In this document: one piece after another, positions 24,559 to 26,692 of the stretch
Position numbering within the stretch: position 1 is the stretch's first letter
How the letters are laid out: each line of letters starts with the position of its first letter
NCBI GenBank assembly: GCA_017478965.1
Contig: JAFVCV010000034.1
Coordinates: forward strand, 1-32,900
Source: Ruminococcus sp.
Lineage (GTDB): Bacteria; Bacillota; Clostridia; Oscillospirales; Ruminococcaceae
Direction: 5' to 3'
Length of the DNA stretch: 32,900 nucleotides
The notes under the pieces: generated by a model
Database searches by the model: none
The model's input: only the letters and a program-made list of their open reading frames with translations
What the model was told of the DNA's origin: nothing
Made by a program: the position numbers and the translations under genes

Positions 24559-24586
24559 AATATAGTCGTCAAAGGGCGGCGCTGAT

Positions 24587-24672
24587 GGACAGGTGTCCGA
24601 GTGGTTTAAGGAGCCGGTCTTGAAAACCGGTGATACGGCAACGTACCGTGGGTTCGAATCCCACCCTGTCCG
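24587..24672 (+). tRNA. tRNA-Ser (anticodon TGA)
   Basis: The acceptor stem GGACAGG (24587-24593) pairs with CCTGTCC (24665-24671), followed by discriminator G. The anticodon loop in GCCGGTCTTGAAAACCGG reads TGA. A long class II variable arm (TACGGCAACGTACCGT region) and the GGTTCGAATCC T-arm are present. CCA is not encoded. Confidence 0.97.
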
Positions 24673-24716
24673 TTCATTGGTTTAAATATTTCGGCCGGGC
24701 CGATATACCAGCATTT

Positions 24717-24803
24717 GCGGATTTACCCAAGTGGTGAAGGGGCTCCCCTGCTAAGGGAGTAGGTCTCGAAAGGGGCGCGAGAGTTCAAATCTCTCAATCC
24801 GCG
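24717..24803 (+). tRNA. tRNA-Ser (anticodon GCT)
   Basis: The acceptor stem GCGGATT (24717-24723) pairs with AATCCGC (24796-24802), followed by G. The anticodon arm CTCCCCTGCTAAGGGAG reads GCT. A long variable arm and the GAGTTCAAATCTC T-arm are present. CCA is not encoded. It lies 44 bp after the first tRNA-Ser and is probably cotranscribed with it. Confidence 0.97.
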
Positions 24804-24811
24804 TACAGTAT

Positions 24812-24862: not shown

Positions 24863-24891
24863 TTGACAAAAGGTCAGGGGTGTGGTATAAT
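24863..24891 (+). promoter_or_regulatory. Promoter of the T-box leader
   Basis: TTGACA (24863-24868) and TATAAT (24886-24891) are perfect hexamers with a 17-bp spacer. The expected start is near 24898. Confidence 0.9.
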
Positions 24892-24897
24892 ATCTAC

Positions 24898-25182
24898 ACA
24901 TATTCTAAAGACTGTGACGGAGACAGTAGGCAGTACAGTGAAGCTCCCAGCGAGCCGCAGACAGTGAAAGTGCGGTATCAGTAGCTTTCTGCTGAACATC
25001 ACTCCCGAGTTGCGCCCGGAAAGGCTGAGGCTTAGTATGCGGCGACGCTTTGCAGCGTTAAAGGCAGCACGTATGAAATGAGAGGCGCTGGCTTTTCACA
25101 GTACGGTGTAAAACAGGTGGTATAACGAAGGCATATGCTTATTTTGCTTTCGTCCTATTTTACGTAGGACGGGGGCTTTTTT
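24898..25182 (+). promoter_or_regulatory. T-box riboswitch, probable isoleucine specifier
   Basis: Stem I has AGTA motifs (24925-24928, 24932-24935) and the distal CAGCGAGCC / AGTGAAAGTGCGG elements. The specifier loop reads GAAC-ATC-A, with ATC (Ile) at 24998-25000 followed by the conserved purine; the overlapping CAT (His) would be followed by C. The T-box core ACAGGTGGTATAACGAAG is at 25113-25130. The terminator arms are 25146-25157 and 25165-25176, followed by six T (25177-25182). The antiterminator can form by pairing AGG (25116-25118) with CCT (25154-25156) and ACGAAG (25125-25130) with CTTTCGT (25147-25153), which excludes the terminator. Uncharged tRNA-Ile would therefore switch on downstream genes. 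The obvious target, ileS, is 1.5 kb away. Confidence 0.9.
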
Positions 25183-25242
25183 GTTTGTTCCTTTTTACTT
25201 TTGTGTTGTTGATAAGATAGATCAGGATTTAGAGGTGCAGAT

Positions 25243-25749
25243 ATGTTTATCCCCGAAATACCAGATAACAGTTTGAAAGATGAAATAACTCAGATCGTCG
25301 AATTAAGTAAAAAGCTCGAAAACGACTATGATTTTGAGTATGATCCACCTGCTACCGAGGAAGAATTATCTTCATGGGAAAAAGAGCATAATATAAAAAT
25401 ACCTGAATCAATCAAAGATTGGCTTAGGTTTTCATGCTATTCACATATTCGCAACGAACTTGCTGTAATCAGGAATGTTAACGACTTTGAAGTCAATTGT
25501 GAAATAGTTCCTGAAGACATGGTTATAATTGGCGAGGTAATAGGCGATGGTGAATTTATAGGTTTTTCCAAGAAAAATGGCACAATCTTATGGGAAGATC
25601 ACGGCAATTTAGAATGCTATAATAACTTTAAAGAGCTACTAAAAGAAATTATTGATATGATGCATGGCCATACAGGATTATCCGAAACATCCATTAACAT
25701 TTTACAAGCAATGGCAAAAAAAGCTAAAGAAGGAAATAACAATGACTGA
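25243..25749 (+). CDS. SMI1/KNR4 (SUKH) family protein, possible immunity protein
   Basis: A 168-residue acidic, AT-rich gene. PPATEEELSSWEKEHNIKIPESIKDWLRF is the hallmark N-terminal region of SMI1/KNR4 proteins. It is followed by beta-rich segments (VIIGEVIGDGEFIGFSKKNG, TILWEDHGN) and a C-terminal helix, which together complete the fold. SUKH proteins are often immunity proteins against secreted polymorphic toxins, but no toxin gene is visible here. The start ATG 25243 follows AGAGGTG. It is the first gene after the T-box terminator, 60 bp away, so it sits under isoleucine control. Codon use is more AT-rich than in the flanking ileS, suggesting insertion. Confidence 0.87.
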   Translation: MFIPEIPDNSLKDEITQIVELSKKLENDYDFEYDPPATEEELSSWEKEHNIKIPESIKDWLRFSCYSHIRNELAVIRNVNDFEVNCEIVPEDMVIIGEVIGDGEFIGFSKKNGTILWEDHGNLECYNNFKELLKEIIDMMHGHTGLSETSINILQAMAKKAKEGNNND

Positions 25750-25903
25750 AGCACAAAGAATAATAAATGATTTTAATGCACTAGACATATCTGATAGAAA
25801 AGCGTATCTTGTGCAGATCAACGTTAACGTAAAGGGTAAGGCGCTTGCGCCGAATCGTGACTGCGCCGCCGCTTGCTCAGCGGCAAATTTTGATTTATCT
25901 TAG
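25742..25903 (+). pseudogene. Truncated small ORF, probable remnant
   Basis: A 53-codon frame overlapping the SMI1-like gene by 8 bp (ATGACTGA). The first ~27 residues (MTEAQRIINDFNALDISDRK onward) look like a genuine N-terminus and share the AT-rich composition of the upstream gene. From about 25830 the frame enters a GC-rich hairpin region and becomes Ala/Cys-rich before the stop. It is best read as a gene cut by a rearrangement; a short real protein is possible. Confidence 0.45.
25840..25884. repeat. GC-rich double hairpin at a composition break
   Basis: GGCGC-TT-GCGCC (25840-25851) and GCCGCT-TGCTC-AGCGGC (25868-25884) are two perfect stem-loops 16 bp apart. They lie at the point where AT-rich sequence from the SMI1 block ends. 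They resemble short extragenic palindromic repeats or the scar of an element; no second copy exists in this window. Confidence 0.55.
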
Positions 25904-25961
25904 GAACACATTTGTAAAAAGGGAGTTTTGTTTTCAGCAAAGCCAAAAAGGAGGGAAAGTG

Positions 25962-26657
25962 ATGATAACAGACAGCTTTGACCCGATATCCAAGGCAATT
26001 ATCGACCCCTATGAACTGAGGGGGAAGGACCTGCCAAAGGTGGATATCTGCATCATTACTTTCTCCTGTATCATAGAAAGGTCTGTCAGGGAGAACTACC
26101 CTTGTAAGCAGATAGCAGTTCTCAGAAATGCGGCGGGGGCCATCGAGGACTGCATAATGTCGCTGGACTGCGGGAAGTTCCTGGCTTTCGGAGGTGCGGG
26201 GTGTCTTGATAAGGAGATCGCTCACGGAAAGGTGATGGTGCCCACGGAGGCTTACCGTGACGAGGGGACTTCTTACCACTATGCGGCGCCTGCGGACTAT
26301 ATCAGAGTGTAGAATTCTGATAAGGTCGCAGCTTTTATGGAAGAGAACGGTCTGCCCTATGTTATGGGGAAGACCTGGACCACCGACGCATTTTTCAGAG
26401 AGACGAAAAACAATTTTGAGAAACGCAGGGCTGAGGGCTGTATCTCCGTGGAGATGGAATGTTCAGGCTTTCAGGCGGTGTGCGATCTGCGTGGGCTGGA
26501 ATTCTACACGTTCTTCACCAGCGGGGACCTGCTGGATGCGCCGGAGTGGGACGACAGAAGAAAGTGCAGTCAGGAAAAATGCACCCAGCACGACGCCGGG
26601 CATTTTGACATCGCTCTGGAGCTGGCGTTGTATATGACGGATAAGACACGATCATAG
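25962..26657 (+). pseudogene. Nucleoside phosphorylase family gene interrupted by an in-frame TAG
   Basis: The frame starts at ATG 25962 after AAGGAGGG and would encode 231 residues. The first part (to codon 116) includes KFLAFGGAGCLDKEIAHGKV and PTEAYRDEGTSYHYAAPADY, typical of purine/uridine phosphorylases. Codon 117 is TAG (26310-26312). The same frame then continues without shift into VAAFMEENGLPYVMGKTWTT, DAFFRE and the conserved CISVEMECSGFQA to a normal stop at 26657. One base change in a sense codon such as CAG or AAG would explain it. Sequencing error or suppression cannot be excluded. Without the stop it would act in purine or pyrimidine salvage. It precedes ileS by 35 bp. Confidence 0.85.
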
Positions 26658-26692
26658 TACAGATCAATTTTTTATGAAAGGATAGATGTAAA

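Follow-up and report, generated by a model that had tools for sequence, protein, structure and literature searches.

Introduction

Mobile insertion cassettes (MICs), as described in parts of PMC6542083 and PMC5444012, are a known kind of mobile DNA, and the former source has them depend on an active transposase. They combine inverted-repeat ends and a passenger gene with the lack of a transposase and are presumed to be mobilised in trans, traits that they share with the cassette family reported here. MIC231 of Bacillus cereus is said to be of this build, with inverted-repeat ends, a passenger gene and no transposase. The member that we describe from a 32,900-nucleotide stretch of a Ruminococcus sp. 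genome (contig JAFVCV010000034.1 of assembly GCA_017478965.1; this whole stretch is called the window) has terminal inverted repeats, a target duplication of fixed length and a passenger gene without a transposase. The Ruminococcus family nevertheless departs from MICs in that (i) no autonomous partner IS was seen when 8 genomes were searched for two transposase families, (ii) one pair of ends carries many different single genes, in several genera, and (iii) the cargo appears to have been exchanged within fixed insertions.

Integron gene cassettes also hold one small gene each, and NUDIX, acetyltransferase, glyoxalase and phosphotransferase genes are carried by integron cassettes and Ruminococcus cassettes alike. 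Unlike integron cassettes, the elements described here have two inverted ends, variable 8-bp duplications and scattered sites, with no attC-like fold. The single imperfect palindrome folding as a strand that characterises attC was not found in the window cassette, whose ends fold as DNA at -0.3 to -1.1 kcal/mol, and on neither strand more stably than shuffles. Members of about 200-300 bp that possess both ends and a target duplication, but no notable ORF (L116, L088 and L129), are reminiscent of MITEs, from which the family differs in that many of its members carry full-length genes. A word search of a MITE review (PMC10969869) returned neither Clostridia, Ruminococcus, passenger nor cargo in the text that it covered, and no description of such cassettes, in Ruminococcus or generally, was found in the open-licence PubMed Central literature. 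The MIC kind being already known, what is new here is the ends, the breadth of the single-gene cargo and its apparent exchange in place.

The window cassette lies between an isoleucine T-box and ileS. Such a leader usually stands directly before the synthetase gene, but tRNA ligases may be distal, rather than first, genes of T-box operons, as a passage of PMC2494555 indicates. We propose, with a probability of about 0.88 for the account as a whole, that the T-box and ileS were parted first, that a cassette then inserted between them and left the switch intact, that read-through would now join the cassette to ileS, and that the cassette belongs to a family moved in trans, the cargo of which may be replaced.

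The isoleucine T-box and its distance from ileS

The leader had been read in a preliminary description as an isoleucine T-box with an ATC specifier and with mutually exclusive antiterminator and terminator, and our comparisons uphold each of these points. At lowered thresholds the leader fits RF00230 over the full length of the model, and its score (Table 1) is below the Rfam gathering score of 93 bits; a default Rfam scan thus misses it and returns two tRNA-Ser genes as its only matches in the window. None of the orthologous leaders of relatives reaches 93 bits either (53.5-74.6 bits, n = 16), and that of the nearest relative, G023, scores 74.7 bits. GAA-N-ATCAC and GGTGGT are invariant in all 17 aligned leaders (the window, G023 and 15 relatives), so that the isoleucine specifier is backed by comparison, beyond the reading of one sequence. 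The specifier loop, the T-box core and the two exclusive structures are all found in the window, with the 5' arm of the terminator doubling as the 3' arm of the antiterminator. There are eight other T-box matches in the same genome, at 53-119 bits. The tRNA-Ser genes (TGA and GCT anticodons; 24586-24673 and 24716-24804) lie directly 5' of the T-box and are followed by a terminator-like hairpin of their own.

Table 1. Coordinates of the features in and around the cassette (strand +, or. where none applies)
Feature	Position	Strand	Support
Promoter-like site of the T-box transcript, TTGACA-17-TATAAT	24863..24891	+	12/12 consensus match
Isoleucine T-box leader	24905..25160	+	RF00230, 80.4 bits, E 2.6e-17; kept across 17 aligned leaders
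Specifier codon ATC	24998..25000	+	GAA-N-ATCAC in 17/17 leaders
T-box terminator hairpin	25146..25176	+	-18.7 kcal/mol, z -6.4; T-tract thereafter up to 25186
Target duplication, left copy, 8 bp, TTTTGTTT	25179..25186	.	Window comparison; tested over 21 elements
Putative mobile gene cassette, whole, 739 bp	25187..25925	+	Ends, target duplication, homology to dispersed relatives
Cassette left end (LE)	25187..25232	+	54.9 bits in the R1 search; nhmmer
Cargo gene, SMI1/KNR4 (SUKH-1), 168 aa	25243..25749	+	PF09346, 33.7 bits (cut-off 25.4)
Second, truncated cargo ORF	25742..25903	+	Runs into RE; Pfam matches of the frame all below cut-off
Cassette right end (RE), inverted relative of LE	25880..25925	+	nhmmer 48.4 bits (the window copy was itself among the four model seeds); LE/RE alignment better than 5000/5000 shuffles
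Target duplication, right copy, 8 bp, TTTTGTTT	25926..25933	.	Window comparison
Phosphorylase pseudogene, 5' part	25962..26312	+	PF01048, 26.1 bits; ends at TAG; 84 bp missing vs G023
Phosphorylase pseudogene, 3' part	26337..26657	+	PF01048, 38.7 bits
ileS, isoleucyl-tRNA synthetase, 1047 aa	26693..29836	+	PF00133, 434 bits

In its core parts the leader is the same as the usual ileS T-box leaders (RF00230); it differs by the 1,532 nt, mobile cassette included, between its end and the GTG start of ileS. An ileS gene is present in 27 of the 29 genomes of the genus. Eighteen loci were scanned for a T-box (IleS identity of at least 83%, plus G023 at 94%), eight loci with a divergent IleS (44-45% identity; L028-L035) being left out. 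The T-box adjoins ileS in 16 of the 18, at 49-82 nt in the 15 relatives where the gap is measurable (at L026 the protein match begins within the gene, and L027 is cut by a contig end). The preliminary description had held a spacing of about 1.5 kb to be unusual, which is correct for the genus, with one qualification: in G023 (L010) the T-box is likewise removed from ileS, by 2,685 nt, and the phosphorylase gene between them is intact. Since 15 relatives show the short gap and only the window and G023 the long one, adjacency is the usual state, and the derived one is shared by the window and G023.

The interval in G023 consists of a tandem repeat array, the intact 256-aa phosphorylase gene and two more genes, then ileS. 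The array (L057:5280-5912) has a 96-bp unit in 6.7 copies with 86% matches; it contains a conserved core rich in GC, CCCGGGCTAGG, and gave no Rfam match at E 0.01. The window phosphorylase, which aligns with that of G023 at 77% of nucleotides, falls into two PF01048 pieces: a TAG (26310-26312) interrupts it, and 84 bp are missing in frame; it had rightly been described as carrying a nonsense codon. Because the nearest relative has an intact phosphorylase gene in this same interval, the separation predates the cassette and is not a consequence of the SUKH insertion. As a first step, then, the T-box would have been parted from ileS in the common lineage of the window species and G023, by the phosphorylase among other genes. 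Decay of the phosphorylase belongs to the window's lineage, whether before or after the insertion. We also considered the phosphorylase as cargo of the cassette, which is ruled out by its position outside the element ends and its intact state in G023.

A 739-bp cassette in the T-box terminator

The cassette came to light in a DNA search with positions 24898-25240, which gave unexpected matches, in many genomes, to the stretch just past the terminator. These matches proved to be a motif of about 45 bp with differing genes behind it, and an inverted, diverged copy of this motif closes the window segment. The window cassette thus has imperfect terminal inverted repeats of about 45 bp each; LE aligned to the inverse of RE scores 17, against 11.5 for the best of 5000 dinucleotide shuffles. 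The insertion point is in the T-tract of the T-box terminator and is flanked by the perfect 8-bp duplication. Relatives generally keep an unbroken terminator tail, the leader of G011 showing the uninterrupted form GCTTTTTTGTTTTC, and the uninterrupted target at the window locus is predicted to have been CTTTTTTGTTTTC.

The segment between T-box and ileS had been described as a series of inserted and broken genes, comprising a SMI1/KNR4-like gene, a truncated ORF, a GC-rich double hairpin and the phosphorylase. An immunity-type gene was indeed inserted and the phosphorylase is indeed broken; PF09346 recognises the former well above its cut-off, and the ORF is truncated, with its stop inside RE. 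The double hairpin did not hold up as a structure, its stability being no better than that of shuffles (z -0.6). Neither are these separate items: the SUKH gene, the truncated ORF and the hairpin region together make up, as far as sequence comparison can tell, a single mobile cassette, bounded by inverted repeats and flanked by a target duplication of 8 bp. As a second step, this non-autonomous, transposon-like element would have been inserted, in the window's lineage only, by an event of cut-and-paste type that duplicated 8 bp inside the T-tract.

The SUKH superfamily has been described as immunity proteins (in part of PMC3482391). The cassette protein matches PF09346 as these do, and an immunity role here is putative; it differs in that no toxin gene is seen next to SUKH in the cassette. 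The gene is single copy in the window's genome. A search of PDB sequences gave no relative (best E 0.5, unrelated), and no plasmid relatives of SUKH were found.

A dispersed family with common ends

A sequence-only model of LE (R1), built from 17 copies, gave 40 matches of at least 30 bits in 16 of the 29 genus genomes, the seeds being counted among them. Three of the 40 are in the window's genome (G000), and two of these three (contigs C26 and C31), which show an overlap of exactly 141 bp, possibly represent a single element. The overlap (G000:C26:1-146 and G000:C31:8649-8789) is inside LE, the cargo being a 188-aa protein without known family, and marks an assembly branch, perhaps owing to further copies or to strain variation. 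More widely, LE was found in 15 of 247 genomes of the family, representing 8 of 126 genera (E 1e-4 or better), and in 16 of 394 genomes of the order (at 0.001), with only one match above 25 bits outside the family. An exact pattern occurred in 11 stretches among 84,980 species genomes, all in records of Ruminococcus, uncultured Clostridiales or uncultured Clostridia. The fetched loci yielded 97 non-redundant LEs at a permissive threshold, of which 39 have a same-orientation RE within 6 kb; many of the unpaired ones run into the end of a contig, and some of the weak ones could be chance matches. At an earlier stage of the count 35 of 81 were paired, with element lengths of 199-1,016 bp. No match was obtained among plasmid relatives of LE, viral contigs or defence families.

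Target duplications were tested in the 21 elements with an RE of at least 30 bits, taking the best 8-mer at the predicted tips and allowing one-base shifts. Seven or 8 of the 8 bases match in 12 elements, against an average of 0.84, and 3.5 at most, when left and right flanks were re-paired 300 times; the other 9 show no duplication of 7/8 or better. A further perfect duplication, outside this test, is seen at L094. The same glyoxalase-type cassette is found in G003 (L059) and in another Ruminococcus (L131), with 93% identity over 475 bp, tip to tip, and no match between the flanks (600 bp compared, with only 156 bp available left of L131). In the same way, L178, from another genus, is homologous to L148 from the tip through the cargo. 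Where cassettes at different sites are homologous, the homology stops at the tips.

The 8-nt targets are 83% AT, as opposed to 58% further out. Of 65 left tips, 6 have a terminator within 20 nt (two of these being one and the same site), where shuffles give a mean of 0.2 and a maximum of 2, and 5 of 21 right tips are near one. We rejected terminator targeting as a general rule, as this is an enrichment only and probably a result of the AT-rich target. Three short cassettes of G015 without notable ORF (L060, L063 and L064) contain GTGAATAGTGAAGAG-type repeats, and their end-proximal GC hairpins resemble the one before the right end in the window.

Cargo and its apparent exchange at fixed sites

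A Pfam scan of 25 cargo proteins gave 12 that attain the cut-off of a family: SUKH-1, glyoxalase, GNAT, beta-lactamase family, APH family, DUF6054, NUDIX, PRK/uridine kinase, SF0329, AAA_33, a reductase with a P5CR dimerisation domain and cytidine deaminase (RE was not reached or recognised for GNAT, the beta-lactamase family, AAA_33 and the deaminase). The start codon is 43-63 nt from the left tip in 10 of these 12 (57 nt for the window SUKH gene), so that LE would also serve as most of the 5' leader of the cargo. All 12 share the same orientation, but cargo was looked for on that strand alone.

Ten genomes yielded 11 copies of one intergenic site, of which 7 are empty and 4 occupied. The empty paralogous copy in G013 reads TTTTTTATTTAAATAAGG, and occupied copies read TTTACAAA, the cassette, then TTTAAAAATAAGG or TTTTCAAATAAGG, the left copy TTTACAAA being common to all four. 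Contig C40 of G013 holds the site twice (3224 and 53149; 94-97% identity to the query), one occupied and one empty. Three cargos occur there: a 111-aa protein (G003 and G005), a 106-aa protein (G002) and a phosphotransferase-family protein (G013a). The 111-aa cargo is stopped at 62 aa in G005 (L168; G005:C55:30193 onward) and intact in G003 at the same site. Compared pairwise, G002, G013a and G003 have in common the left flank and outer LE, and the right flank and RE, with no homology between, and BLASTP shows no relationship among their cargo proteins at any meaningful E-value. One old insertion, the cargo of which was later replaced, would be a simpler explanation than separate insertions that each hit an identical base. 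A second candidate is provided by G230 and G534 (genus g16), with left flanks 97% identical and 42 nt of LE at 97.6%, followed by differing sequence; this case is weaker, as the G534 contig ends 112 nt into the element. Unrelated cargos between shared flanks and shared ends at one site suggest that cargo can be exchanged inside a fixed insertion, and resident cassettes may have their cargo replaced by recombination between the ends. One might speculate, with some doubt, that the Ruminococcaceae possess a gene-capture system of this kind, the paired transposon-like ends acting as docking ends at which the gene of a cassette already fixed in place is swapped for unrelated genes through recombination between shared ends.

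Rival readings of the ends and of the regulation

The cassettes are presumably moved in trans by a transposase making 8-bp staggered cuts in an AT-rich target. No transposase gene was found in any element or with cassette tips (25 cargo proteins scanned with Pfam, the longest two-ended element being 1,016 bp). As mobilisers, the IS256 family (PF00872), present in only 2 of 8 genomes searched and absent from the window's genome, and the IS1595 family (PF12762), present in only 1 of the 8, were set aside; no LE or RE was reported at the loci of these two transposase families in the 8 genomes. A search of 29 genomes with the outer-tip pattern, aimed at a long element with its own transposase, led at 20 of the places fetched to nothing but further ends, cassettes or remnants, with no transposase noticed among the ORFs listed there; a backwards control pattern also matched in most genomes, and 3-mismatch matches were not trusted. 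It might be argued that the ends are instead sites of a tyrosine recombinase, making these site-specific recombination cassettes, integron-like or other. The single-gene cargo is of integron type and is apparently exchanged at fixed sites, and in the window's genome a lone RE lies downstream of a tyrosine recombinase gene, at a distance of about 190 bp (L240). We nevertheless consider this quite improbable, as the duplications vary by site (TTTTGTTT, ATTAGTAA, TTTTAGAA), as in transposition and unlike a fixed core site, the ends are inverted pairs of which neither folds alone like attC, the copies are scattered rather than in arrays, and that recombinase is the only such neighbour seen, at a locus where no LE was found. 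The recombinase at L240 (G000:C11, RE near 54628) has 374 aa and is XerA-like by NCBIfam, below cut-off. Still harder to credit is that the genes between T-box and ileS came there by ordinary horizontal transfer or by local shuffling, and that the repeats are coincidental, or regulatory motifs standing before genes. There are precedents for a T-box synthetase lying behind other genes of its operon (in part of PMC2494555), and LE stands at a near-fixed distance before genes, as a regulatory 5' region might; but RE is downstream and inverted, homology stops at both tips, target duplications are present, cassettes without ORF exist, and tip-to-tip homology and empty sites contradict this explanation. 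Transposition in trans, followed by occasional cargo exchange through recombination between the ends, is the course of events that seems most likely.

The other matter to be weighed is what the insertion did to expression. The promoter, specifier, antiterminator and terminator hairpin were left intact, and as the hairpin and most of the T-tract stay to the left of the insertion, termination should still occur with charged tRNA-Ile. With uncharged tRNA-Ile, and since these parts are intact, read-through transcripts should carry SUKH first, and may then extend through the phosphorylase pseudogene to ileS. The capture of an immunity gene into a tRNA-Ile starvation regulon, one of two outcomes offered in the preliminary description, stands as far as the insertion is concerned, which is real and fits the intact promoter, switch and terminator; the capture of expression is a prediction. 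The other outcome was that control had been lost: ileS would be freed from the T-box and driven by a promoter that escaped notice, somewhere downstream of the cassette, and the T-box would serve SUKH alone or nothing. The 1.5 kb of inserted and pseudogenised sequence before ileS, and the yet larger gap of 2,685 nt kept by G023, speak for such a loss. Against it, a consensus scan (promoter-like sites rather than mapped starts) gave no + strand site of at least 9/12 starting between 25783 and 26693, in keeping with the earlier claim that no strong promoter precedes ileS, and the sole terminator-like hairpin en route (25868-25884) has a weak T-run in a region that folds no better than shuffles. 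We regard loss of control as unlikely, and starvation-induced read-through into SUKH and ileS as plausible.

Significance for the family and its hosts

The odd operon of the window is accounted for by a concrete event, and the family exposed here would appear in conventional annotation only as scattered single genes. The locus may be a natural case of a mobile cassette acquiring starvation control by landing in a riboswitch terminator. Should the exchange of cargo be confirmed, it would offer a way of shuffling adaptive genes for which neither an integron nor a transposase of the element's own is required. If the ends do act as docking ends, single adaptive genes could be shuffled much as in integrons, with no integrase involved, and new genes could be placed behind resident regulators such as the isoleucine T-box.
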